From NCBI RefSeq assembly GCF_900103825.1, contig NZ_FNIF01000026.1, positions 1-64,000 of the forward strand: a stretch of 64,000 bases of DNA. Direction: 5' to 3'. Below the pieces are notes generated by a model. It searched no databases. It had not been told where the DNA came from and saw only the letters and a list, made by a program, of their open reading frames with translations. Position numbers and translations under genes: made by a program. This document shows, piece by piece, positions 5,986-62,504 of the stretch (positions are counted from its first letter, which is position 1; every line of letters begins with the position of its first letter). This DNA is from Paenibacillus sp. yr247. GTDB lineage: Bacteria > Bacillota > Bacilli > Paenibacillales > NBRC-103111.

Positions 5986-6173
5986 CTGCTGACATAAAAG
6001 TTTTCAAGAAAATGGGCTGGCATTGTCGGAATCGGAAATGTCCTTTTTTAAATAATAATGACTATGTCCACCAAGATTTGTTAACGCTCCGAACACTTCA
6101 AAACCTTGTTTTTGTAACATGCTTCCGCACAAATTAAAACAGGGAGCAGCTGCCGCGGCTATCTTTTGAACGC

Positions 6174-6789: not shown

Positions 6790-7260
6790 TATAAACCCTT
6801 GATCTGACGAGGAATTGTCACGGAAAAGAACAGAAAAACACCCAATCCTTTGGTAAAATTAAGCTACCACACAAAACCACCAAGGAAGGATGTTTCTCTT
6901 GTCTATCGTATCAAATCCCTCGGCTTCTGAAAAGCAATTAACTTCAAAAGTAGATTCCTTTTTTGCCCAACATCGGATCAGTAAATTGTTGAACAATCTA
7001 ATTTTTTCAAGGAGTGCGGTTTTACATGCTTTGAACTGTTCAAATTCATTTTTTTGCTAGTTTTCAGCAACAAGAATCTATATCAAACGCTGAAAAAAGA
7101 AGATGAAGCTGCCCGGCCAGGAAAAGATAGTGTCAATCGCTTTCTGAATTCGAGCCAGTTCAATTGGCGTAAATTCTTGCTACTTTTAAGCAGTAGTCTC
7201 ATCGAAGCCAAGCTCAATCCCTTATCATCCAATGAATGTCAAACAACAAATAAGAGGCTT
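6790..7260 (+). pseudogene. IS4-family transposase, N-terminal fragment with frameshift
   Basis: A TTG at 6899 after AAGGAAGGA opens a frame that reads SIVSNPSASEKQL and SFFAQHRISKLLN, typical for the start of Bacillales IS4-type transposases. The frame then fails; another frame carries it on from about 7035 (LFKFIFLL) through NLYQTLK, EEDEAARPGKD-like sequence and FNWRKFLLLLSSSL, ending near KLNPLSSNE at about 7233. So one frameshift plus loss of everything after about residue 115. The catalytic DDE core is not on this strand. The left end of the element probably lies near 6790, where the ankyrin reading frame is lost. Confidence 0.75.
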
Positions 7261-9386: not shown

Positions 9387-10568
9387 TTAAATATGTATCA
9401 CTTTATCACGGGAAATTGTCAGTTTTTCGTATCCACTTTCGGTGATCAGATACGTATCCTCAATGCCAACCACTCCGCGACCGGGGAAGGTGAACTTGGG
9501 TTCAATCGCGATGACCATGCCAGGCGCCAGCGGGTATTTGAACCCTTTGGCGAGAACAGGCAGTTCGTCTATTTCGAGCCCAATGCCGTGACCAAGGAAT
9601 TTCACTTGGTCGGCGCCGTACCCCATGAAGTGGGCGCTTAGCCCCGCTTCGTGCACTTGATCCAGCGCGAGCAGATACAGATGCTCGGCGATAACACCAG
9701 GCTGCAGCCTGGATTCCGTAGCGCGGAGCACCTGCTCCGCCACGTCATAGGCCCGCTGCAGCTCAGGGTCTAAATCATCGATCACTAGCGTGCGCGTCTG
9801 ATCGATGAGATAACCGTCGATCGAGCAGCCGATATCGACGAGGATCGGTTCGCCGCGTCCGATCAGCGCGCGGCCAGAGCTTTGCGGGCTGGACGGGTGG
9901 AGCCCCGTGCCACCGGCCGGCCCGTCAAAATAGGTGGGCACCGCTGCCGCAGCTCCTGCCGCTACCATTCCGGTTATCAACTCGGAATTGTACGCGCGCA
10001 TGCGCATCAGCCCTTGGTGCCCGCGCAGGCGGAGCTGATGCTCGATGAGCGCCATCAGCTCAAACTCCGCCATCCCCTCACGAATGTGGGGGATGACCGC
10101 TTCCAAGGCTGCGTCGACGACACGCGCAGCCTTCCGAATCGCCGCGACTTCGTTCGGCGATTTGATCATCCGCTGCTCGCGCACGAGCAGCGAGCCGTCC
10201 TCCCAGACCGCGCCGGGCAGCGCGGCCTGCAAACGAAAGAACAGCTGGACGGGTAACACGTCCAGCTCGGTCGCGATCCGCAGCGGCGCAGCCGCGGATC
10301 CATCCGCGCATCGCGCCAGAAGACGCTCACCGAGCGTCTTCAAAGACCCCAGCGCTTCCACAGCCGCTGACGCTTCCTCCTCCGCTCGGACCAAACTTCG
10401 GCGTACGAGATAAAGCGCCTCGCCTTCCGCCGGAATAAACAGATACCCCGTCTGCATCGATCCGCAGTAATAATATATATCCACATTGTTGGCGACCAAG
10501 AAGCCGGACCATCCCCGCTGGATCATCTCACCCTGCAGCCACTGCTGTCTTTGCTGGAAAACATTCAT
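9387..10568 (-). CDS. M24 family metallopeptidase (Xaa-Pro dipeptidase-like)
   Basis: A cytosolic pita-bread-fold aminopeptidase, probably cleaving Xaa-Pro dipeptides, 393 residues. The N-terminal creatinase-like domain covers about 1-130. All five metal ligands of the catalytic domain are present: Asp245 (LVDIG), Asp256 (IDQTR), His327 (LGHGIG), Glu356 (AIEPK) and Glu370 (GIEDT). The ATG follows AAGGAGAGG. It lies 54 bases downstream of the Tad-like operon on the same strand and might be cotranscribed, though a TATAAT-like box at about 10614 may give it its own promoter. The central part (about 9750-10420) is much richer in GC than its neighbours. Confidence 0.92.
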   Translation of the reverse strand: MNVFQQRQQWLQGEMIQRGWSGFLVANNVDIYYYCGSMQTGYLFIPAEGEALYLVRRSLVRAEEEASAAVEALGSLKTLGERLLARCADGSAAAPLRIATELDVLPVQLFFRLQAALPGAVWEDGSLLVREQRMIKSPNEVAAIRKAARVVDAALEAVIPHIREGMAEFELMALIEHQLRLRGHQGLMRMRAYNSELITGMVAAGAAAAVPTYFDGPAGGTGLHPSSPQSSGRALIGRGEPILVDIGCSIDGYLIDQTRTLVIDDLDPELQRAYDVAEQVLRATESRLQPGVIAEHLYLLALDQVHEAGLSAHFMGYGADQVKFLGHGIGLEIDELPVLAKGFKYPLAPGMVIAIEPKFTFPGRGVVGIEDTYLITESGYEKLTISRDKVIHI

Positions 10569-10622: not shown

Positions 10623-11105
10623 TCAAAATACCATCTCCGCAGAAGACTTAATCGTCCACGTAATCGGCTGCAAAACGGTATACGTTCGCGGAAATTCCAA
10701 ACGGATGAACATAATCACTCCAGGCCGATCAAGTGTAACCGAGTAACCATATCCCGCATCCAAATACGTATAAGGAAATACCTCATTATCATTAACAATC
10801 TTAAATAATTCCACCACAACCCGAGAGCGTAAAAACGTATTTGGCAGCGGATCATTCATCCCATTCAATCTTAAATTAGTTTGCAAATACTGCAGCGCTG
10901 CGTTTCTTGCCTTCGTCTCATCAATAGCGTGAATGCCGCCTGCCAGCTTCACTTGATCACTTTGCTGAGCAGCCGCATGTACCGCATTATTCAAAGCGTG
11001 CTTTCCGTGAAAAAGCGTATGCATCGCCAACTCCTCATCCGTTTGCAAAGCAAATAGCGATAGATAAACCACACTCATCAAAACGAACAAAAGCAGTTTA
11101 TACAA
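10623..11105 (-). CDS. Pseudopilin-like protein of the Tad-like operon (large)
   Basis: About 160 residues, no known family recognised. One N-terminal hydrophobic helix (KLLLFVLMSVVYLSLFAL) is followed by an extracellular-type domain with an amphipathic helix (HALNNAVHAAAQQSDQV), as in TadE/TadF-type minor pilins. A strand-rich C terminus follows. I choose the TTG at 11105, since GAGGTG stands just before it; a TTG at 11126 overlaps the stop of the previous gene but has no site. It is the last gene of the operon. There is no classical prepilin peptidase site (Gly-x4-Glu) before the hydrophobic helix. Confidence 0.65.
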   Translation of the reverse strand: MYKLLLFVLMSVVYLSLFALQTDEELAMHTLFHGKHALNNAVHAAAQQSDQVKLAGGIHAIDETKARNAALQYLQTNLRLNGMNDPLPNTFLRSRVVVELFKIVNDNEVFPYTYLDAGYGYSVTLDRPGVIMFIRLEFPRTYTVLQPITWTIKSSAEMVF

Positions 11106-11122
11106 GTCATCACCTCGGGCCC

Positions 11123-11548
11123 TCAAGGTACATATTCACTCATTTTCATGCCCGCAGCGCCCATGCGATCAGAAGCAGCGGGAACTGTAATTCCGACAAG
11201 CTGATCAATCACAAAAAGTCGATGATACGGATACGTCATTTTCAAACTTAAGCCTGTCCCTCTCCAAACAGGCAGACTTGCATCCATTCCCCCGCCCCCT
11301 GTGGTCGTTTCTACCGTATAAACAAGATCCCCGGATACGAAGCCTCTTTCCTCCATTCGATCCCTAGAATCCTGAATCATTACGCTATTAATATAACCGT
11401 GCCTGCCGTTGGCACCGATTTCTAGCAAGTAATCGACCTCTTTTTGCAAAACAGCCTGTCTAACAATAATGACATGCTTATACACTGGTGCGAACATGAA
11501 CCAGCAAAGCATCGTCGCAAACAAAATAAACACCAAAATCTGCTTCAT
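11123..11548 (-). CDS. Pseudopilin-like protein of the Tad-like operon (small)
   Basis: 141 residues, family not recognised. It has an N-terminal hydrophobic segment (ILVFILFATMLCWFMF) directly after MKQ, then RQAVLQKEVDYLLEIG as the helix that in TadE-like proteins continues the transmembrane helix. The remainder contains a VETTTGGGG loop and strands. Its ATG overlaps the stop codon of the 48-residue peptide gene (ATGA), so the two are translationally coupled. Likely anchored in the membrane with the domain outside, as a minor subunit of the fibre; this is inference from position and topology. Confidence 0.7.
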   Translation of the reverse strand: MKQILVFILFATMLCWFMFAPVYKHVIIVRQAVLQKEVDYLLEIGANGRHGYINSVMIQDSRDRMEERGFVSGDLVYTVETTTGGGGMDASLPVWRGTGLSLKMTYPYHRLFVIDQLVGITVPAASDRMGAAGMKMSEYVP

Positions 11549-11691
11549 GGGTTAATCCGCTCAATCGTCCCATTAATCCTTGCACCGCTGTTACTAACCT
11601 GCTGTCGGGTACCTGTGCTGCCCCCAACTACATTGTTATATATGACAATCACCACCATAATCAGCATCACCGTAACGAGGATCGATCTCAA
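11545..11691 (-). CDS. Small membrane peptide B, candidate pilin (48 aa)
   Basis: A 48-codon gene beginning with TTG after GAAGG and ending in a stop overlapping the next start. It begins RSILVTVM, continues as a hydrophobic helix to about residue 22, then GSTG, an Arg and a polar tail ending in Pro. It aligns along its full length with the neighbouring 49-residue peptide (RNILITVM, GSTG, Ser and Gly at matching spacing, final Pro), so the two are tandem duplicates. Their place in the operon, after TadC and before the pseudopilin-like proteins, suggests structural subunits. No Flp-type Gly-x4-Glu-Tyr processing site is visible. Confidence 0.6.
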   Translation of the reverse strand: MRSILVTVMLIMVVIVIYNNVVGGSTGTRQQVSNSGARINGTIERINP

Positions 11692-11707
11692 AGCAAGCCT
11701 TCTATCA

Positions 11708-11857
11708 TTAAGGCCTCAATGCCGTAATGTCTGTATTTGCTTGCGTTCCATGCGTTGAAATATTTCGTCTCATCCCTGTAGACCCATCATTTATAATCGA
11801 TGTAAAAAGTAAAGCCACCACAATTAGCATCATGACTGTAATCAATATGTTCCTCAT
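11708..11857 (-). CDS. Small membrane peptide A, candidate pilin (49 aa)
   Basis: A 49-codon gene starting with ATG 13 bases after AAGGAGAG. It starts RNILITVM, has one hydrophobic helix (to about residue 22), then DGSTG, a basic MRRN patch, and a polar tail. It lies 15 bases after tadC. It is a tandem paralog of the next gene, with matching residues from end to end. With one helix at the very N terminus and a 25-residue hydrophilic tail it has the shape of a Flp pilin but lacks a leader peptide. Function is inferred only from size, topology and place. Confidence 0.65.
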   Translation of the reverse strand: MRNILITVMMLIVVALLFTSIINDGSTGMRRNISTHGTQANTDITALRP

Positions 11858-11872
11858 AAGCTCGCACTCTCC

Positions 11873-12772
11873 TTAGTTAATCGCATCAAATAATCGCTGA
11901 CCTTCGGCAATCCACGGGTACATGAATACCCGAAAGGTGTTCAAAATCGGCAGTCCCGCTAACACAAAAAGCAAATAAGAAACGGTTTCTTTTTTACTGT
12001 CTCGGACCAGTTCCATTTTTTCTTTGTAGTCCTGAATTCGTTGCTTCATCAGTTCGTAATAACTGCCGTGTTCATTAAGCCTCAAAGCATTCAACGTTTC
12101 CCCAAAGCTATGCGCTTCATCCGTGCCTAATCTCGCTTTAAAATTCAAAATAGCTTCTTCCGAGCCTTGATACCATTCATTAAGCAGCAATTGAAAGTGT
12201 GTCCGGATCGAGCGCGTCTGCGTTACACATAAAGAAAGCTTGGCATGCAAATTCATATGAGAATCATTGTAATAGAGAAGGTGATGACTAATAACGTAAA
12301 TTTCTCGAACAATCCGATGTGCTCGTTTTTCCTTCAATTGAGCCAGCACTTTTTTATCAAAAAATAAAAAAATCAGCATACACGCCGCCCCGACCATGAC
12401 ATAAATGGGCTGTATATGAAAAGTAAACATAGGATAATCCAGAGCTAAGTATCCTGCCGCACCAATCAAAAGTGCCCCACCCATCAACATTCTTCTCACA
12501 CCTTCGTAAAGGTTGGCATTCATCCAAATACCGCACCCCAGCAATAGCTGCCGCTTTTCCTCCACTATTTTCGTACTCAATCCTAAACATGTGAACAACC
12601 ATAAGGGAAGCCTCGTTTCTTGCAGCGCTCTTTTGACATGAAGAGACCTCCACCTCTTCGTCCGGACAGGCACATGCATGAAGCCGTGATAAATAACTGT
12701 CATGAAGAGAAGGAAGAGTAGTAAATTAGAAGCCATCTGAATAATCACAAGTTGTGTGCTATCAATAATCAC
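11873..12772 (-). CDS. TadC-like membrane platform protein
   Basis: 299 residues with the T2SSF-type pattern of inner-membrane platform proteins: a hydrophobic segment near residues 8-30, a pair near 95-140, a long cytoplasmic helical region (about 145-260) and a final helix (VSYLLFVLAGLPILN). Paired TadB and TadC proteins form the assembly platform above the ATPase in Tad pilus systems. The gene starts with GTG at 12772 following GAGGGATTGG, 12 bases after tadB ends. Sequence similarity to standard TadC is low by eye; the call rests on topology and on the neighbouring tadB and cpaF. Confidence 0.75.
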   Translation of the reverse strand: MIIDSTQLVIIQMASNLLLFLLFMTVIYHGFMHVPVRTKRWRSLHVKRALQETRLPLWLFTCLGLSTKIVEEKRQLLLGCGIWMNANLYEGVRRMLMGGALLIGAAGYLALDYPMFTFHIQPIYVMVGAACMLIFLFFDKKVLAQLKEKRAHRIVREIYVISHHLLYYNDSHMNLHAKLSLCVTQTRSIRTHFQLLLNEWYQGSEEAILNFKARLGTDEAHSFGETLNALRLNEHGSYYELMKQRIQDYKEKMELVRDSKKETVSYLLFVLAGLPILNTFRVFMYPWIAEGQRLFDAIN

Positions 12773-12784
12773 AGAGCCAATCCC

Positions 12785-13717
12785 TCACATTCTTCGCATA
12801 GATAAGTACATTCCCATTAAAAACGAGATAAAAATAAGCAGAAGCGCATCTAAGATCATGTTTCGCCCACCAGGGTCAATAATATAGTACAAATAAGCAT
12901 TCTCTGTGTTTACCTTGAAATTAATAAATAAGAATAAGGCAAGAAACAAAATTGGCGTAAAATTGGCAATACGAATCTCCAAAAGCCGATTTCTTTCCAA
13001 CTGATCGAATCGCTGCGCTTTCCGCATATCGACGATTAACTCCTTTAGGCTTTCTCCAACAAAACTCCCTTCCGTCAAAGAAACACGCATAACGCCGACA
13101 AAATAATCGGCCCAGGTATGGCCTAAAGTGAGTGAGAAGATGCGCAAACTCTCCTCCGTATCCCGTTGTGTCATTAAATTACGATATAATTGTTCGAATA
13201 CAGGCTTGATCGGATATAAAATTCGGTTTTCTTCTAAACAATACTTAAGAGCAATTTTCATATTCTTGTTTGGATCCACCATATAGTACTGATAGAAAAC
13301 TTCAACGGCCGGAAGAAATTCCAATCGAGTTTGCAACCTGACACTAACCAGCTTCAATCGAAGCCGCATATACGGCAGCGAAACACAGATGGATGTAAGG
13401 ATAAAGACCCCTTTTAACGTCTGGAAAAACAAAGTACCCGCTAAAAGTCCAACTAAAAACAACACGAAACTTAGCGTCAGCATAGACCGCATGCTCATTT
13501 TGGATTCGACGGATTCCATCATTTCCTTTACAGGCTTAAATAAAAGGCTCCTATTCCCCAAATATTCGCTGAATCTAGTGCCGAACGTGGAGTTTTTGAC
13601 ATAATGCAGCCTAAATCTGGCTTTGCGTTGTCGGATGAGTAGCTTTAAAAGGGATTGAATGAGTATATATACGAGTACAAAAAGCAAGATTAGAAAGACA
13701 TATTTGGCGAAAATCAT
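12785..13717 (-). CDS. TadB-like membrane platform protein
   Basis: About 310 residues. An N-terminal helix, two close helices around residues 90-135, a cytoplasmic helical domain with the T2SSF-type stretch VMRVSLTEGSFVGESLKELI, and two C-terminal helices separated by a short NTENAYLYYIIDP loop. I start it at the ATG at 13717, 8 bases after GAAGGCGAG; a TTG at 13741 would overlap the cpaF end. It follows cpaF directly, as in other Tad operons, and is the platform subunit thought to couple the ATPase motor to pilin extraction. Confidence 0.8.
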   Translation of the reverse strand: MIFAKYVFLILLFVLVYILIQSLLKLLIRQRKARFRLHYVKNSTFGTRFSEYLGNRSLLFKPVKEMMESVESKMSMRSMLTLSFVLFLVGLLAGTLFFQTLKGVFILTSICVSLPYMRLRLKLVSVRLQTRLEFLPAVEVFYQYYMVDPNKNMKIALKYCLEENRILYPIKPVFEQLYRNLMTQRDTEESLRIFSLTLGHTWADYFVGVMRVSLTEGSFVGESLKELIVDMRKAQRFDQLERNRLLEIRIANFTPILFLALFLFINFKVNTENAYLYYIIDPGGRNMILDALLLIFISFLMGMYLSMRRM

Positions 13718-13721
13718 CCCA

Positions 13722-15254
13722 TTACTCGCCTTCTTTCTCAATAATACCGAGCTTCATCAACAATGCATGCCCCTCTTGGTCAACCTTAACTATTTTCCGC
13801 GATGCATGATGCGACAATTTCCCGGGAAATGTCCAATCATCTGTCGACTTGTCATAAACTGCGAGATCTGTGACGCAAACCTCCTCATTTTCATACCGAT
13901 ATTCGACGATTCGCACAATTTTTCTTTTCAGATGAACGATCTTCATCTCTATACCGATTTGAGTAACAAACTCTGTAATCCGTTTCGTTAAACGCAGAGG
14001 ATTCATCCCCCGGCCATCCAGCATGCACATATCCGTAATCGCATCAGGTACATCCTCAAGTTCACTAACATGGACTGAAGTAATACTGCCCTCGTGACCT
14101 CGCGTACAGGCCCTAACATAAAGGTTTGCATCATCATCCCTAATTTCGGCGTGACAAATGCGCTTTGGTGATTGCCTTAATGCCAGTTTAAAAGCTTGCA
14201 AACCGGAATGCCTCGGGTCCTCCTCGTCAATTTCGTATTCAACGATATTTTTGTGCGGAAAATCTCGCTTCAGATTTAACTCGAATCTCGATTCGATCGT
14301 AATAATTCTTTCGTTATCATCCATTTCGGCAATGATTGCTTTGATTAAATTGGTCTTCCCCGAGTTCGTTGGGCCAATAACGACCATGTTAAAATAAGAG
14401 CGAATCAAACAAAGAATCAGGTTTTCCATCCGGCTATCCATCGTGGCAAGTTCCGCAGCGGCAAGCGAAGCCAAATCAAACCTCTTTACGGTGTAAAAAC
14501 GAATCGTTAATGTTGGTTCAGCTGTGAATCCGAACCCTGTCATCGTAACACGCGACCCGTCCCGCAGAACGACCTCCGCCCATCGCTTCCTAGGATTCAA
14601 AGTATCATTGTTAAAAAGAACCAGATTTTGTTGAATCCGCTCTAATTCACGTACGGAAGGCAGCATATACGGAGACGGCAATGCCATCCCTCCACGCACT
14701 TCAAAAATCTGTCTCCCCACAACCTGAATCTCCTCAAGTCCCTCCCTCTGCTTCAATACGAGTTCAAGCACATTCAACCCAATAATCTCAGCAAAAATCG
14801 CTTCAGGCAAAGTCGTATATCCACTAGTCCGTGGAGGCACATCAGAAAGCCTTCTTTTCGATACAAGATCATGGATAATCGCAAGCAGCTTGCCTCGATC
14901 CTCCTCATAACCAAGAATTGCACGATTCAAAGTCTCGTTATAAAGCTGCTTTTCTGCCTCCGTCCTTCCTTTCATTGTAACAAGCTCACCACGTATGTCC
15001 TGAACCCACTGGTTAAAAGTGGCATCTACTCCGGCCCCTGTTCCATCTTTCACTCCTGAAGTACTTTCAAATTCTCCTGCCACTCCCAATGGCCGCCCAT
15101 TTTGCCCTGCTTCTATCCCCCCATTCCCAATTCTCTCCTGCCCATTACCAAGTCCAACTCCCTTTTCCGACTTACTTGTACCCGTACCTACCTCGGAAGC
15201 CTCTGTCTTGCGCTCATGCATGTAGGTTATAATCGAAAACCTTTCCTCATTCAC
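13722..15254 (-). CDS. CpaF/TadA-like secretion ATPase
   Basis: The hexameric motor ATPase of a Tad/type II secretion-like machine, about 510 residues. The first 100 residues are low-complexity and Gly/Glu-rich. The ATPase core has a Walker A GPTNSGKTN near residue 305 of the start used here, ITIESRFELNL as Asp/Glu box, a HAEIRDDDA segment where family members normally read GEIRG-EA, and HEGSITSVHVS as the His box. The loss of the usual Gly-Glu-x-Arg-Gly pattern is unusual. I use the GTG at 15254, which follows GAGGTG by 6 bases and lies past the cpaE stop; the frame is open up to 15332. Confidence 0.85.
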   Translation of the reverse strand: MNEERFSIITYMHERKTEASEVGTGTSKSEKGVGLGNGQERIGNGGIEAGQNGRPLGVAGEFESTSGVKDGTGAGVDATFNQWVQDIRGELVTMKGRTEAEKQLYNETLNRAILGYEEDRGKLLAIIHDLVSKRRLSDVPPRTSGYTTLPEAIFAEIIGLNVLELVLKQREGLEEIQVVGRQIFEVRGGMALPSPYMLPSVRELERIQQNLVLFNNDTLNPRKRWAEVVLRDGSRVTMTGFGFTAEPTLTIRFYTVKRFDLASLAAAELATMDSRMENLILCLIRSYFNMVVIGPTNSGKTNLIKAIIAEMDDNERIITIESRFELNLKRDFPHKNIVEYEIDEEDPRHSGLQAFKLALRQSPKRICHAEIRDDDANLYVRACTRGHEGSITSVHVSELEDVPDAITDMCMLDGRGMNPLRLTKRITEFVTQIGIEMKIVHLKRKIVRIVEYRYENEEVCVTDLAVYDKSTDDWTFPGKLSHHASRKIVKVDQEGHALLMKLGIIEKEGE

Positions 15255-15289
15255 TCCCTTCACCTCTTCCCTGCTTGATTTAGCTTGAT

Positions 15290-16525
15290 TTAAGTGGCCG
15301 TTCGTCTTCCTGTAATGATCTTCTGCAGCCACGTGACTTGTCGTAAGCTCACCTTCCTTGGCAGCTTGTAGTAATCAATGAATTTACGTGAAACCGCCTT
15401 AACCTCCTCATGCATAGCATGGCTTGGCGCAAACATGTCCAGCAGCTTTCCTTGATTACAACGAGAAAGCGCATCAGCATGTCTGGAAACTTGACCAATG
15501 AAATGCAGCTGTGTTTCCTTGCGAATATCTTTTATCGTGAACTCGTTAGGTTTGGCATGTCGATCTGTTTGAACAGCCATTAATTCAAAGCTATCCGGCT
15601 GAAGGCCAAAAACAGAGCCAACCTGCCTGATCCACCTCGAAAAATCCTCTTGAAAATGGGAGATATCGGCTGTCGTTACAACAATTTTGCTATCTGCTTC
15701 CAGCAGCCCACAAACCGTCGCCGCATTGTCCCAATAGGCGTTAACCTCTATGACGCAGACATCAAAAGCACTTCGAGCTACTCGCAACAAATGAACAATC
15801 TCGGATGGTGAAAAAAACTCCGCCTGCTCGCGAAGCATATTACCATACAAAACATGTAACCCATGTGCCTCTTTCGGTTTATCGCACACTTGCAGCAGCC
15901 TTTCCGGTGTGAGGCTTTGAGCCTTCAACTCCGCTCTCAGACCATCCAGCGTAAAAACATGCTCGTCCCGGCCTAAATAACGATGAAGCTTGGAGCTTTT
16001 TAAATTGAGACATAGATACCCAACTTTCTTAGACGACTCCAACGCTAGCGAGTAGGCCACTCCAAATGAAGCCAACGTCGTACCTATGTTTGGTGTAGAC
16101 CCGATGAATGTGATCAACTTTCCTTTAGGCTGTTGATTCCCCTGATCTCCCCCAGAACCATCCACCCAAGCCCGAATATCATCAGCAATAACAGCTGTGC
16201 TGCGCCCTGGCTGGATATAGTCAAGCCTCATCAACTTGCACATTTTCACATATTTTTCATTGATGGGAGCATCATGATAATTCGAAAGCAGAACAATTAT
16301 TTTTATATCTGAGTACTGTTGCTGTAACCCCTCAAGGAACTCTACCAAATCTCCAAAATCTAGCTCCCTATCCGATATAATCACATGTGAAAAAGGTAGG
16401 TCATTTAATTTATTAGCGAGATCAACCGCAGCCGAGGAAATAACCCAGTTTAACGGTTTCATATAAACCACATTAATAATTTCATCAGTTAATCGTTGAT
16501 CCGTTGAAAGCAAACCGATATGCAT
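15290..16525 (-). CDS. CpaE/TadZ-like protein, receiver plus degenerate MinD-type domain
   Basis: 411 residues. The first 120 resemble a pseudo-receiver domain (VIISDRELDFGDL, IKIIVLLS). From about residue 135 there is a MinD/ParA-type fold with a deviant nucleotide loop, IGSTPNIGTTLASFG, lacking the signature lysines of KGGxGKT; CpaE and TadZ proteins are known for such deviation. Further family-like parts are DVCVIEVNAYWDNAAT and KIVVTTADISHFQEDFSRWI. These proteins position pilus machinery at the membrane or pole. An AAAGGAGGT site precedes the ATG. It lies between the SAF protein and the CpaF ATPase. Confidence 0.85.
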   Translation of the reverse strand: MHIGLLSTDQRLTDEIINVVYMKPLNWVISSAAVDLANKLNDLPFSHVIISDRELDFGDLVEFLEGLQQQYSDIKIIVLLSNYHDAPINEKYVKMCKLMRLDYIQPGRSTAVIADDIRAWVDGSGGDQGNQQPKGKLITFIGSTPNIGTTLASFGVAYSLALESSKKVGYLCLNLKSSKLHRYLGRDEHVFTLDGLRAELKAQSLTPERLLQVCDKPKEAHGLHVLYGNMLREQAEFFSPSEIVHLLRVARSAFDVCVIEVNAYWDNAATVCGLLEADSKIVVTTADISHFQEDFSRWIRQVGSVFGLQPDSFELMAVQTDRHAKPNEFTIKDIRKETQLHFIGQVSRHADALSRCNQGKLLDMFAPSHAMHEEVKAVSRKFIDYYKLPRKVSLRQVTWLQKIITGRRTAT

Positions 16526-16569
16526 ACCTCAGACCTCCTTTCATTCTCCTGCCGACCCTATGCTCCCAT

Positions 16570-17277
16570 TCATTCTCCTGCCAAAATAGAAGAGGAACTG
16601 AACGCAATGACCAACTTTGCTTTCTTCATACTGCATAGTTGATCGATTTGGAGCCACTCACTCTCCGCTAAATTAAGGTTGATCTGGTCGATAGCCCCAT
16701 TCGATTCCAACCGGGAAGCATACATCTTTTCCTTATCCCCGTCCACTTTGGACAGCAGATTAGAGTTCTTTGGATTGTCCACCTCGACATTGGCCGATGA
16801 CTTCACAGAAGCAACCGTAATTTCCTTCTCATCAAAAAGCCTCCGCGAGCTGCCATCCGCCCCAGACATATAAATGCGCACTCGATCACCGGCACGAATA
16901 CCATTCGAAACGGATAGCAAATACTCTTTGGGAATTTGAAAAGTAGCCTGCTGCTCATTAGGGAGCAGATGATATCGATTCACCTTCCATTTCAAAATAG
17001 GTTCATGTGTACCTAGCGGAATCAACGTCTCCTGCCCAATGACCTCCTTCAGGTTAGTCAGCATATTGCTTGTGTAGCTTCCCTTTTGAACAGCTCTGAA
17101 CTCCACCATATCCTCACGAATCAAGACACCAGAACGGATAAAATCTTTCGGAACAACAACCTGAACCGTCTGCTGCAGCTCAACCTGATTCACTTGCAGC
17201 ACATATACCCCATACACCAGCAGCGCCGCCATAACCGCAGCAACCAAACTAATAAGCAGGCTTCTCCTGCGATTCAA
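16570..17277 (-). CDS. SAF-domain protein, CpaB/RcpC-like
   Basis: 235 residues: a short basic start (NRRRSLL), one membrane helix (about 6-28), then an external SAF-type domain with VPKDFIRSGVLIREDMVEF near residues 40-60 and IRAGDRVRIYM near 125-135. CpaB/RcpC proteins act at the cell surface in Tad assembly; in Gram-positives they probably sit in the wall zone. I start it at the TTG at 17277, which follows AAAGGGGGTGAG by 5-7 bases; an ATG at 17307 overlaps the T-run of the hairpin in front. It is the first gene of the operon. Confidence 0.82.
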   Translation of the reverse strand: MNRRRSLLISLVAAVMAALLVYGVYVLQVNQVELQQTVQVVVPKDFIRSGVLIREDMVEFRAVQKGSYTSNMLTNLKEVIGQETLIPLGTHEPILKWKVNRYHLLPNEQQATFQIPKEYLLSVSNGIRAGDRVRIYMSGADGSSRRLFDEKEITVASVKSSANVEVDNPKNSNLLSKVDGDKEKMYASRLESNGAIDQINLNLAESEWLQIDQLCSMKKAKLVIAFSSSSILAGE

Positions 17278-17310
17278 TATCTCACCCCCTTTTCTTAACC
17301 AAAACAAAAA

Positions 17311-17352
17311 AAGAACGCAAACCCCGGAATTAAATCCGAAATCTGCGTTCTT
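17311..17352 (-). terminator. Terminator-like hairpin in the leader of the Tad-like operon
   Basis: AAGAACGCA and TGCGTTCTT form a 9-bp stem with an inner CGGA/TCCG stem, followed on the minus strand by TTTTTTT and then the ribosome binding site of the SAF gene. It may end the fructokinase transcript from 17572, but it also lies between the likely promoter at 17398-17426 and the first tad gene, so it could act as an attenuator. Confidence 0.75.
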
Positions 17353-17397
17353 CGCAAATCAAAACAATCTTGATATAAGTTCAAAAGCTACAATCTA

Positions 17398-60645: not shown

Positions 60646-60659
60646 AGCTTTGCCTCCTT

Positions 60660-60800
60660 GAAGCCTCCGAGGTTAGTTGACGGGTTCGGGAAGAGGTTTT
60701 CCCTAGCTCGCTCAGTTAACTAAAGTAGCTGAGCATTCATTCACCCCAAGTAAAGAAGTCCCCCGTACCGGAGCTATCGCTGCTCCGAGATTCGGCATTT
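60660..60800 (-). promoter_or_regulatory. ydaO/yuaA-type c-di-AMP riboswitch
   Basis: On the minus strand the order GCCGAAT, CTCGGAGC, GGGGGACTT, TTGGGGTGAAT, AGGGAAAACCTC, TTCCCGAACCCGTCA, CTAACCTCGGAGGC matches the conserved blocks of the ydaO aptamer. It ends about 15 bases before the start of the NlpC/P60 gene, and the last block (GGAGGC) is followed by AAGGAGG, so binding may affect translation as no terminator lies between. The remaining gap up to 61001 on the other strand holds no gene. Confidence 0.9.
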
Positions 60801-61001
60801 TTTGTCTATTTTAGACTAGCATAATTCAATTCGTAGTTACAACCTTTTCGCAATGGTAAGTGTTTCCATAGAAAGGAAAACGACCGTTTCCTTTTAGGGA
60901 AAGGCCGTTTTAACAAGAAAAAAATGGTTCGTTATTTAACGAATAAAGCAATTGCTTTTAAACAAAATAGTACTATGTATGTTTATCCTTGGAGGATATG
61001 T

Positions 61002-62121: not shown

Positions 62122-62192
62122 AGCGGGCGGCGGGAATCGAACCCGCGCGATCAGCTTGGAAGGCTGAAGTTCTACCATTAAACTACGCCCGC
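62122..62192 (-). tRNA. tRNA-Gly (anticodon UCC)
   Basis: 71 bases. Acceptor GCGGGCG pairs with CGCCCGC; the D arm, the TCAGC-CTTCCAA-GCTGA anticodon arm and the GGTTCGATTCC T loop are intact. CCA is not encoded. Confidence 0.95.
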
Positions 62193-62210
62193 GTCTTATT
62201 AAATTGATGG

Positions 62211-62284
62211 TCGGGACGACACGATTTGAACATGCGACCCCCTGCTCCCAAAGCAGGTGCTCTACCAAGCTGAGCTACGTCCCG
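62211..62284 (-). tRNA. tRNA-Pro (anticodon UGG)
   Basis: 74 bases. Acceptor CGGGACG pairs with CGTCCCG; anticodon arm CTGCT-TTGGG-AGCAG with UGG; T loop GTTCAAATC. No CCA encoded. Confidence 0.95.
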
Positions 62285-62308
62285 AAGCGTTTTAGTGATG
62301 AAAAATGG

Positions 62309-62382
62309 CGCGCCCTGAGAGATTCGAACTCCCGACCTTTTGATTCGTAGTCAAATACTCTATCCAGCTGAGCTAAGGGCGC
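62309..62382 (-). tRNA. tRNA-Arg (anticodon ACG)
   Basis: 74 bases. Acceptor GCGCCCT pairs with AGGGCGC; anticodon loop CTACGAA with ACG, where A34 is normally changed to inosine by TadA deaminase. T loop GTTCGAATC. Confidence 0.95.
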
Positions 62383-62432
62383 TTAGATAAATGCGAAGCA
62401 TTTATAGCTTCGTAAGCCTAAACTTAATTTGG

Positions 62433-62504
62433 AGCGGAAGACGGGGATCGAACCCGCGACCCTCGCCTTGGCAAGGCGATGCTCTACCGCTGAGCCACTT
62501 CCGC
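62433..62504 (-). tRNA. tRNA-Gly (anticodon GCC)
   Basis: 72 bases. Acceptor GCGGAAG pairs with CTTCCGC; anticodon loop TTGCCAA with GCC; T loop GTTCGATCC. It is first in the direction of transcription of four tRNA genes. Confidence 0.95.

Follow-up and report, generated by a model that had tools for sequence, protein, structure and literature searches.

The defining feature of type 4 pilins is a leader cut by a prepilin peptidase (PMC10191384), and tad-like operons that depart from this pattern have been described in Gram-positive bacteria. Imam et al. 2011 (PMC3244431) report such operons, with products that have no prepilin motif, in clostridial species and Desulfitobacterium, and report tadV as present. 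Here, a 64,000-nucleotide stretch of the genome of Paenibacillus sp. yr247 (the window; contig NZ_FNIF01000026.1, positions 1 to 64,000) was examined for a nine-gene operon at 10623-17277 on the minus strand. Like the Tad (type IVc, Flp) pilus, the operon includes a CpaF/TadA ATPase, two platform-type proteins, a CpaE/TadZ-like protein, a CpaB/RcpC-like SAF-domain protein, small helical subunits and two proteins in the TadE/F position. Unlike that pilus, it has no TadV, no Flp leader and no leader on any subunit, and no secretin was matched among the nine proteins in general family scans, none of which was aimed at secretins. It shares tad-like organization and products without a prepilin motif with the loci of Imam et al., and differs from them in also having no peptidase. 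We suggest that the operon probably, though with no great confidence, encodes a machine of the Tad type (type IVc filament) that assembles subunits which have not been processed; its product and function are put forward as proposals. The observations behind this are the gene order and its conservation, the absence of leaders, the association of leaders with a peptidase across 14 plasmids, and the homology of one subunit across both states.

The nine open reading frames (ORFs) overlap or lie a few tens of bases apart and are real genes, all on the minus strand at the positions given by the first-pass annotation of this DNA. In order they encode a SAF-domain CpaB/RcpC-like protein (16570..17277), a CpaE/TadZ-like protein (15290..16525), a CpaF/TadA-type ATPase (13722..15332), a TadB-like platform protein (12785..13741), a TadC-like membrane protein (11873..12772), two tiny peptides called s1 (49 amino acids, 11708..11857) and s2 (48 amino acids, 11545..11691), and two larger proteins called E1 (141 amino acids, 11123..11548) and E2 (about 160 amino acids, 10623..11126). 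The SAF gene begins with a TTG codon at 17277 that is kept throughout the genus alignment, and E2 most likely starts at 11105 (MYKLLL), giving 160 amino acids. In the window the start of E1 overlaps the stop codon of s2. Sequence resembling a ribosome binding site precedes s1 in 70 of 79 orthologues, s2 in 55 of 77 and E2 in 63 of 76, but E1 in only 14 of 77.

CpaF was the sole protein of the nine to score above a curated cut-off (PF00437, T2SSE, 5.6e-18). The best match of its profile among solved structures, at 2.9e-33, was a CpaF structure that we take, from the listing of PMC11300603, to be the Caulobacter-type protein. Its N-terminal stretch is variable, and it reads HAEIRDDDA, as the first-pass annotation noted, where two other CpaF proteins of the same genome have GEVRGAEA and GEVRSGEA. 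The description of the ATPases as diverged holds for this motif; however, the Walker A sequence (GPTNSGKT) and the catalytic glutamate are retained, so divergence here does not mean that CpaF is inactive. The CpaE-like protein, placed between CpaB and CpaF, does lack the Walker lysines, with a degenerate P-loop reading GSTPNIGTTL, and had only a weak MinD match (7.7e-4). The SAF protein is recognizable by the NCBIfam CpaB model yet sub-threshold (1.1e-11, 44.5 bits where the cut-off is 71), and TadB fell below the T2SSF cut-off (0.0052, 17.2 bits against 25.2). TadC did not match T2SSF, and its gene order and membrane segments fit a platform role. The earlier assignment to a Tad/type II secretion-like machine is supported for CpaF and, at a score under the curated threshold, for CpaB; profile searches gave a sub-threshold link for TadB and no meaningful Pfam or NCBIfam family for TadC, s1, s2, E1 and E2. 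None of 65 E1 proteins matched the TadE Pfam model at E<=1, and E2 found no solved structure at E<=1. An AlphaFold2 model of E1 (mean predicted local distance difference test score 92.8, predicted template modelling score 0.81) has a continuous helix at residues 2-45 followed by a small alpha/beta head. Fold comparison placed SPT16 peptidase-like domains, pantothenate synthetases and dipeptidases at the top, with Tad pilins and TadE absent among the 50 matches listed.

None of s1, s2, E1 and E2 of the window carries a prepilin leader. Their membrane helix begins within the first two to four residues, and the most hydrophobic 15-residue segment starts at residue 3-4 in 77/77 s1, 73/77 s2, 74/77 E1 and 73/75 E2 orthologues (two loci, L169 and L180, and one short E2 left out, and six of the s2 entries being the s1 ORF again; L, G and C numbers are our labels for loci, genomes and contigs). 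The first three residues are MRN in 76 of 79 s1 (which open MRNIL[IVM]TVM and are resembled by s2), MKQ or MKS in 70 of 77 E1, and MYK, MHK, MAK or MNK in 73 of 76 E2. An alanine or glycine precedes the hydrophobic stretch in some (MAK in 11/76 E2, MRA in 7/77 s2) with no conserved site. The absence of a canonical Flp pilin, remarked on previously, was confirmed: none of the small proteins has a class III leader, and the G-x4-E-Y string that does occur is at the C-terminus of E1 (GMKMSEYVP). TadE/TadF-type leaders were likewise not found on E1 or E2, both of which open directly with the helix.

A profile search for PF01478 found no prepilin peptidase on this contig, in agreement with the first reading of the locus. 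The genome does have three PF01478 genes, on contigs C44 and C49, where they lie near other pilus-type ATPases. One of these places is another Tad locus (C44, L046), which is like the window operon in having CpaF, CpaE-like, TadB and TadC proteins and unlike it in encoding a peptidase of the TadV type together with an Flp-like protein that bears a leader (EGLGTLEI).

The operon is conserved throughout the genus. CpaF was matched at E<=1e-40 once in each of 30 genomes of the genus, this one included, and all nine genes were present in order in 28 of the 29 others. The 29th, P. oryzisoli (G011), has CpaF in two pieces: its cpaF is split by approximately 41 kb (L077:5150-6640, L078:7553-8030), where one end shows a serine-recombinase-like ORF and the opposite end phage-type ORFs, as judged by eye. 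At the level of the family, 74 of 104 genomes matched CpaF at E<=1e-30, comprising, when read by eye, 51 orthologues of at least 51% identity and 23 relatives of only 27-32%; in a class-wide sample, a match was found in 6 of 398 genomes, again counting this one. Of 16 loci that belong to other genera, 14 had all nine genes in order, the exceptions being L093, where s2 was not found, and L099 (G052), which breaks off in cpaF. In the latter (L099:8000-11700) cpaF ends near residue 449 and a reverse-transcriptase-like ORF lies about 2 kb further on. Among 80 named Paenibacillus and Cohnella loci, a selection from 162 hits, 68 had nine distinct ORFs in order, and in six more the s2 profile re-found only the s1 ORF. 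The remaining six had a split cpaF (L141), no E2 (L142), no SAF gene (L156 and L175) or a broken s1 (L169 and L180). The break in L169 (5259-5405, a metagenome-assembled genome) is close to a contig end; in Cohnella sp. AR92 (L180:9658-10907) s1 is interrupted after approximately codon 12, beside ORFs that by eye resemble a tyrosine integrase and phage-type repressor/antirepressor genes. Excision of such inserted elements during sporulation is a speculative possibility. Mean pairwise identity over 42 loci was highest for s1 (73%), followed by SAF and E1 (70%) and CpaF (69%), and lowest for CpaE and TadC (57%); that of s2 was 61%. This conservation, that of s1 in particular, excludes chance.

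Relatives of the operon are found on large plasmids. A tblastn search with the CpaF of a sister unit in the same genome (contig C52) found 40 plasmids, of which 35 are typed as non-mobilizable. Fourteen module-bearing plasmid regions from Bacillota were inspected, and in 11 the order was SAF, CpaE/ParA-like, CpaF, TadB, TadC, one to five tiny proteins, E1 and E2, with TadB and TadC mostly named by position. The Metabacillus unit keeps the order with a transposon inside; no E2 was seen on the Alkaliphilus plasmid, and those of Thermoanaerobacterium and Virgibacillus have another order or content. The modules of Planococcus, Halobacillus and Cytobacillus are like the window operon in gene order and in the place of the tiny peptides, and several plasmid E1 proteins end in a SEY-like motif; the window copy differs in being chromosomal, genus-wide and without a coupling protein. 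The sister unit (L048, G000:C52:26000-42000) has a transposase-like ORF between TadC and E1.

Both states, with and without leaders, occur amongst these plasmids. Leaders were recognized by eye on E1 and E2, where present, in Thermoanaerobacterium, Alkaliphilus, Brevibacillus and P. rhizovicinus, and on the tiny proteins in Virgibacillus, while the Metabacillus, Planococcus, two Alicyclobacillus, Halobacillus, Cytobacillus pBO1, B. velezensis, Sutcliffiella and C. gottheilii plasmids were leaderless. PF01478 scored above cut-off on four of the five leader-bearing plasmids and none of the nine leaderless ones (Fisher p=0.005, or p=0.0005 with a weak Virgibacillus hit of 14.8 bits counted in). 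The first-pass annotation called the operon reduced; 'leaderless' fits better, given that relatives with leaders and peptidase exist and that both are missing together in the plasmids tested. The Brevibacillus and P. rhizovicinus plasmids combine leaderless tiny peptides with leader-bearing E1 and E2. Leader-bearing relatives are also found on chromosomes, four of them upstream of pepQ (L100, L107, L108 and L112), and for L101 and L109 a home-made profile, built from only two sequences, picked up a peptidase within the part of the locus that was read. The window E2 is homologous to the leader-bearing E2 of Thermoanaerobacterium (hhalign probability 97.8, E 7e-13). With E-values no higher than 3.4e-8, an E2 profile matched 24 of 27 related loci, among them loci of both states; two of the 27 (L103 and L218) are one plasmid. 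Of the others, L048 gave 1.1e-4, L220 gave 0.21 and L206 had no match. For E1 the comparison with Planococcus gave a probability of 67.8. In a CpaF tree of 39 entries a single branch, with support of 90/86 and present in 88% of bootstrap trees, separates leaderless from leader-bearing entries, with long branches flagged.

The machine may work as follows. The ancestors would have had class III leaders and a prepilin peptidase and would have lost both together. CpaF would turn the TadB/TadC platform, with s1 and s2 as putative filament subunits held N-terminus inward by the M-R/K start and single membrane helix, and these would be pulled out of the membrane uncleaved and polymerized. E1 and E2 would serve as minor subunits in the TadE/F position, the SAF/CpaB protein as an extracytoplasmic collar, and the CpaE-like protein as a positional hub without normal P-loop chemistry. 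The predicted product is a short fibre or pseudopilus that spans the Gram-positive wall.

A different possibility, which we consider rather unlikely, is a pseudopilus for protein secretion or signalling, in which no fibre is ever formed and s1 and s2 act within the membrane, either as a short piston or as small membrane proteins with a regulatory role. Their length of merely 48-49 amino acids, with a short tail, and the absence of an adhesin-like protein among the nine would suit such a role. The plasmid relatives point the other way, with one to five tiny genes at the same place, as expected of a bulk subunit, and large surface-type proteins downstream of the module in several cases.

A little less likely again is a machine for DNA transfer, or its domesticated remnant, with the chromosomal copy descended from plasmid systems. 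Among the matches listed, 18 plasmids are common to the CpaF and the coupling-protein searches, several of them Cytobacillus near-duplicates, and in 15 of these CpaF and a coupling protein of the VirD4/TraG type are no more than 15 kb apart. Annotations place such a protein next to the module on Brevibacillus pBbsI and C. gottheilii as well, and the C52 sister unit stands beside a TraG/VirD4 protein that scores above the Pfam cut-offs. However, none of the nine window proteins was identified in family scans as a coupling protein, a relaxase or VirB4, which sets the operon apart from type IV secretion and conjugation systems, a VirD4-like protein being confined to the sister units. Several module plasmids, those of B. 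velezensis and most Alicyclobacillus being examples, are not among the coupling-protein matches listed. A claim that the plasmids lack VirB4 was rejected, as the two plasmids tested each gave a VirB4-like match under the curated cut-off (77.7 and 24 bits); it may therefore be an ordinary system that the coupling protein serves. The tip locus of pXO16, described in a review (PMC9673590), is a candidate for comparison, and a VirB4/VirD4 conjugation locus treated in PMC8941779 had no bearing on the question.

An ordinary Tad pilus processed in trans by one of the three peptidases of the genome, as might be imagined from MSH loci, which have no peptidase gene of their own (PMC6668835), is improbable and not preferred, because in almost every orthologue the hydrophobic stretch comes after just two or three residues and there is no visible leader to cut.

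Just upstream of the SAF gene, leader alignments and pair counts revealed a conserved RNA leader (UGCGAAGAACGCA, 17306..17361, minus strand), in which a 5' hairpin and an intrinsic terminator share bases and are mutually exclusive, as in an attenuator. Of 194 loci, 101 contained a 12-mer, GCGAAGAACGCA, many of these being copies of a single region. From them 74 distinct leaders were picked for the exact 12-mer, which makes its invariance a product of the selection; 71 of the leaders were parsed, and an alignment was made of 60. The pair flanking the hairpin UGCG-AAGAA-CGCA covaries (UA 25, CG 14, AU 7), and in the terminator both sides had changed in 105 cells, compared with 49 in shuffles, both figures being inflated by sequence relatedness. 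We read a sigma-A-like promoter upstream of the leader from the alignments; a consensus scan did not report one. Rfam gave nothing near a gathering score.

A model of the element (R1) scored the window leader at 68.5 bits, its sole strong hit in the genome, with one weak hit (28.9 bits) elsewhere. It found the leader in 24 of 26 orthologous loci without the exact 12-mer, missing only L156 and L175, both also without SAF, and in the divergent L113, and not in L046-L048 or L100-L112 except for one chance-level hit in L105. Within the family, 54 of 103 genomes had R1 matches; two weak hits (G103 and G023) resemble plain terminators. The leader also precedes divergent operons in G089, G043 and G042, and extra copies occur at 2-11 kb in G013, G006, G020 and G004, at approximately 0.9 kb in G024 and elsewhere in G057. 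In L135 the 12-mer occurs twice upstream of the operon, about 0.9 kb apart (6082-6093 and 6949-6960). The element was rejected as operon-specific on account of these extra copies and of six genomes (five g17 and one g13; L225 and L227-L231) that are operon-less, having no CpaF match at E<=1e-30 and no operon gene in the stretch read, where the leader precedes pepQ. Because it is kept there, the leader is linked to the locus (leader-[operon]-pepQ) and is not specific to the operon.

The pepQ gene of the window, for a PepQ-like Xaa-Pro peptidase (9387..10568, minus strand), lies 54 bases downstream of E2. In 66 of 80 loci, considering only the genes searched, it came directly behind E2, and it possibly belongs to the same transcription unit. 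The s1, s2 and E1 proteins (11123-11857) all end in proline. Further along, the window has a cyclic di-AMP riboswitch (60647-60807) and a four-tRNA cluster (62122-62504).

Among the titles and abstract openings listed by searches of an open-access library, with few subscription papers, none described this operon or a leaderless Tad system without a peptidase. Tad-like loci without a prepilin motif but with tadV were already known; what is added here is that leader and peptidase are absent together, along with the relatives on plasmids and the RNA leader. A wider and much more speculative proposal, which we would not expect to hold in full, is that prepilin processing was lost once, long ago, and that this gave rise to a clade that polymerizes uncut subunits, serving VirD4-coupled DNA transfer on plasmids and, in the chromosomes of Paenibacillus and Cohnella, a core organelle under its own RNA attenuator. 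If the plasmid relatives do move DNA, plasmids typed as non-mobilizable would need to be re-assessed. Whether polymerization requires cleavage can be tested naturally in a clade that has neither leaders nor peptidase, and monoderm bacteria gain a nine-gene filament system for study.

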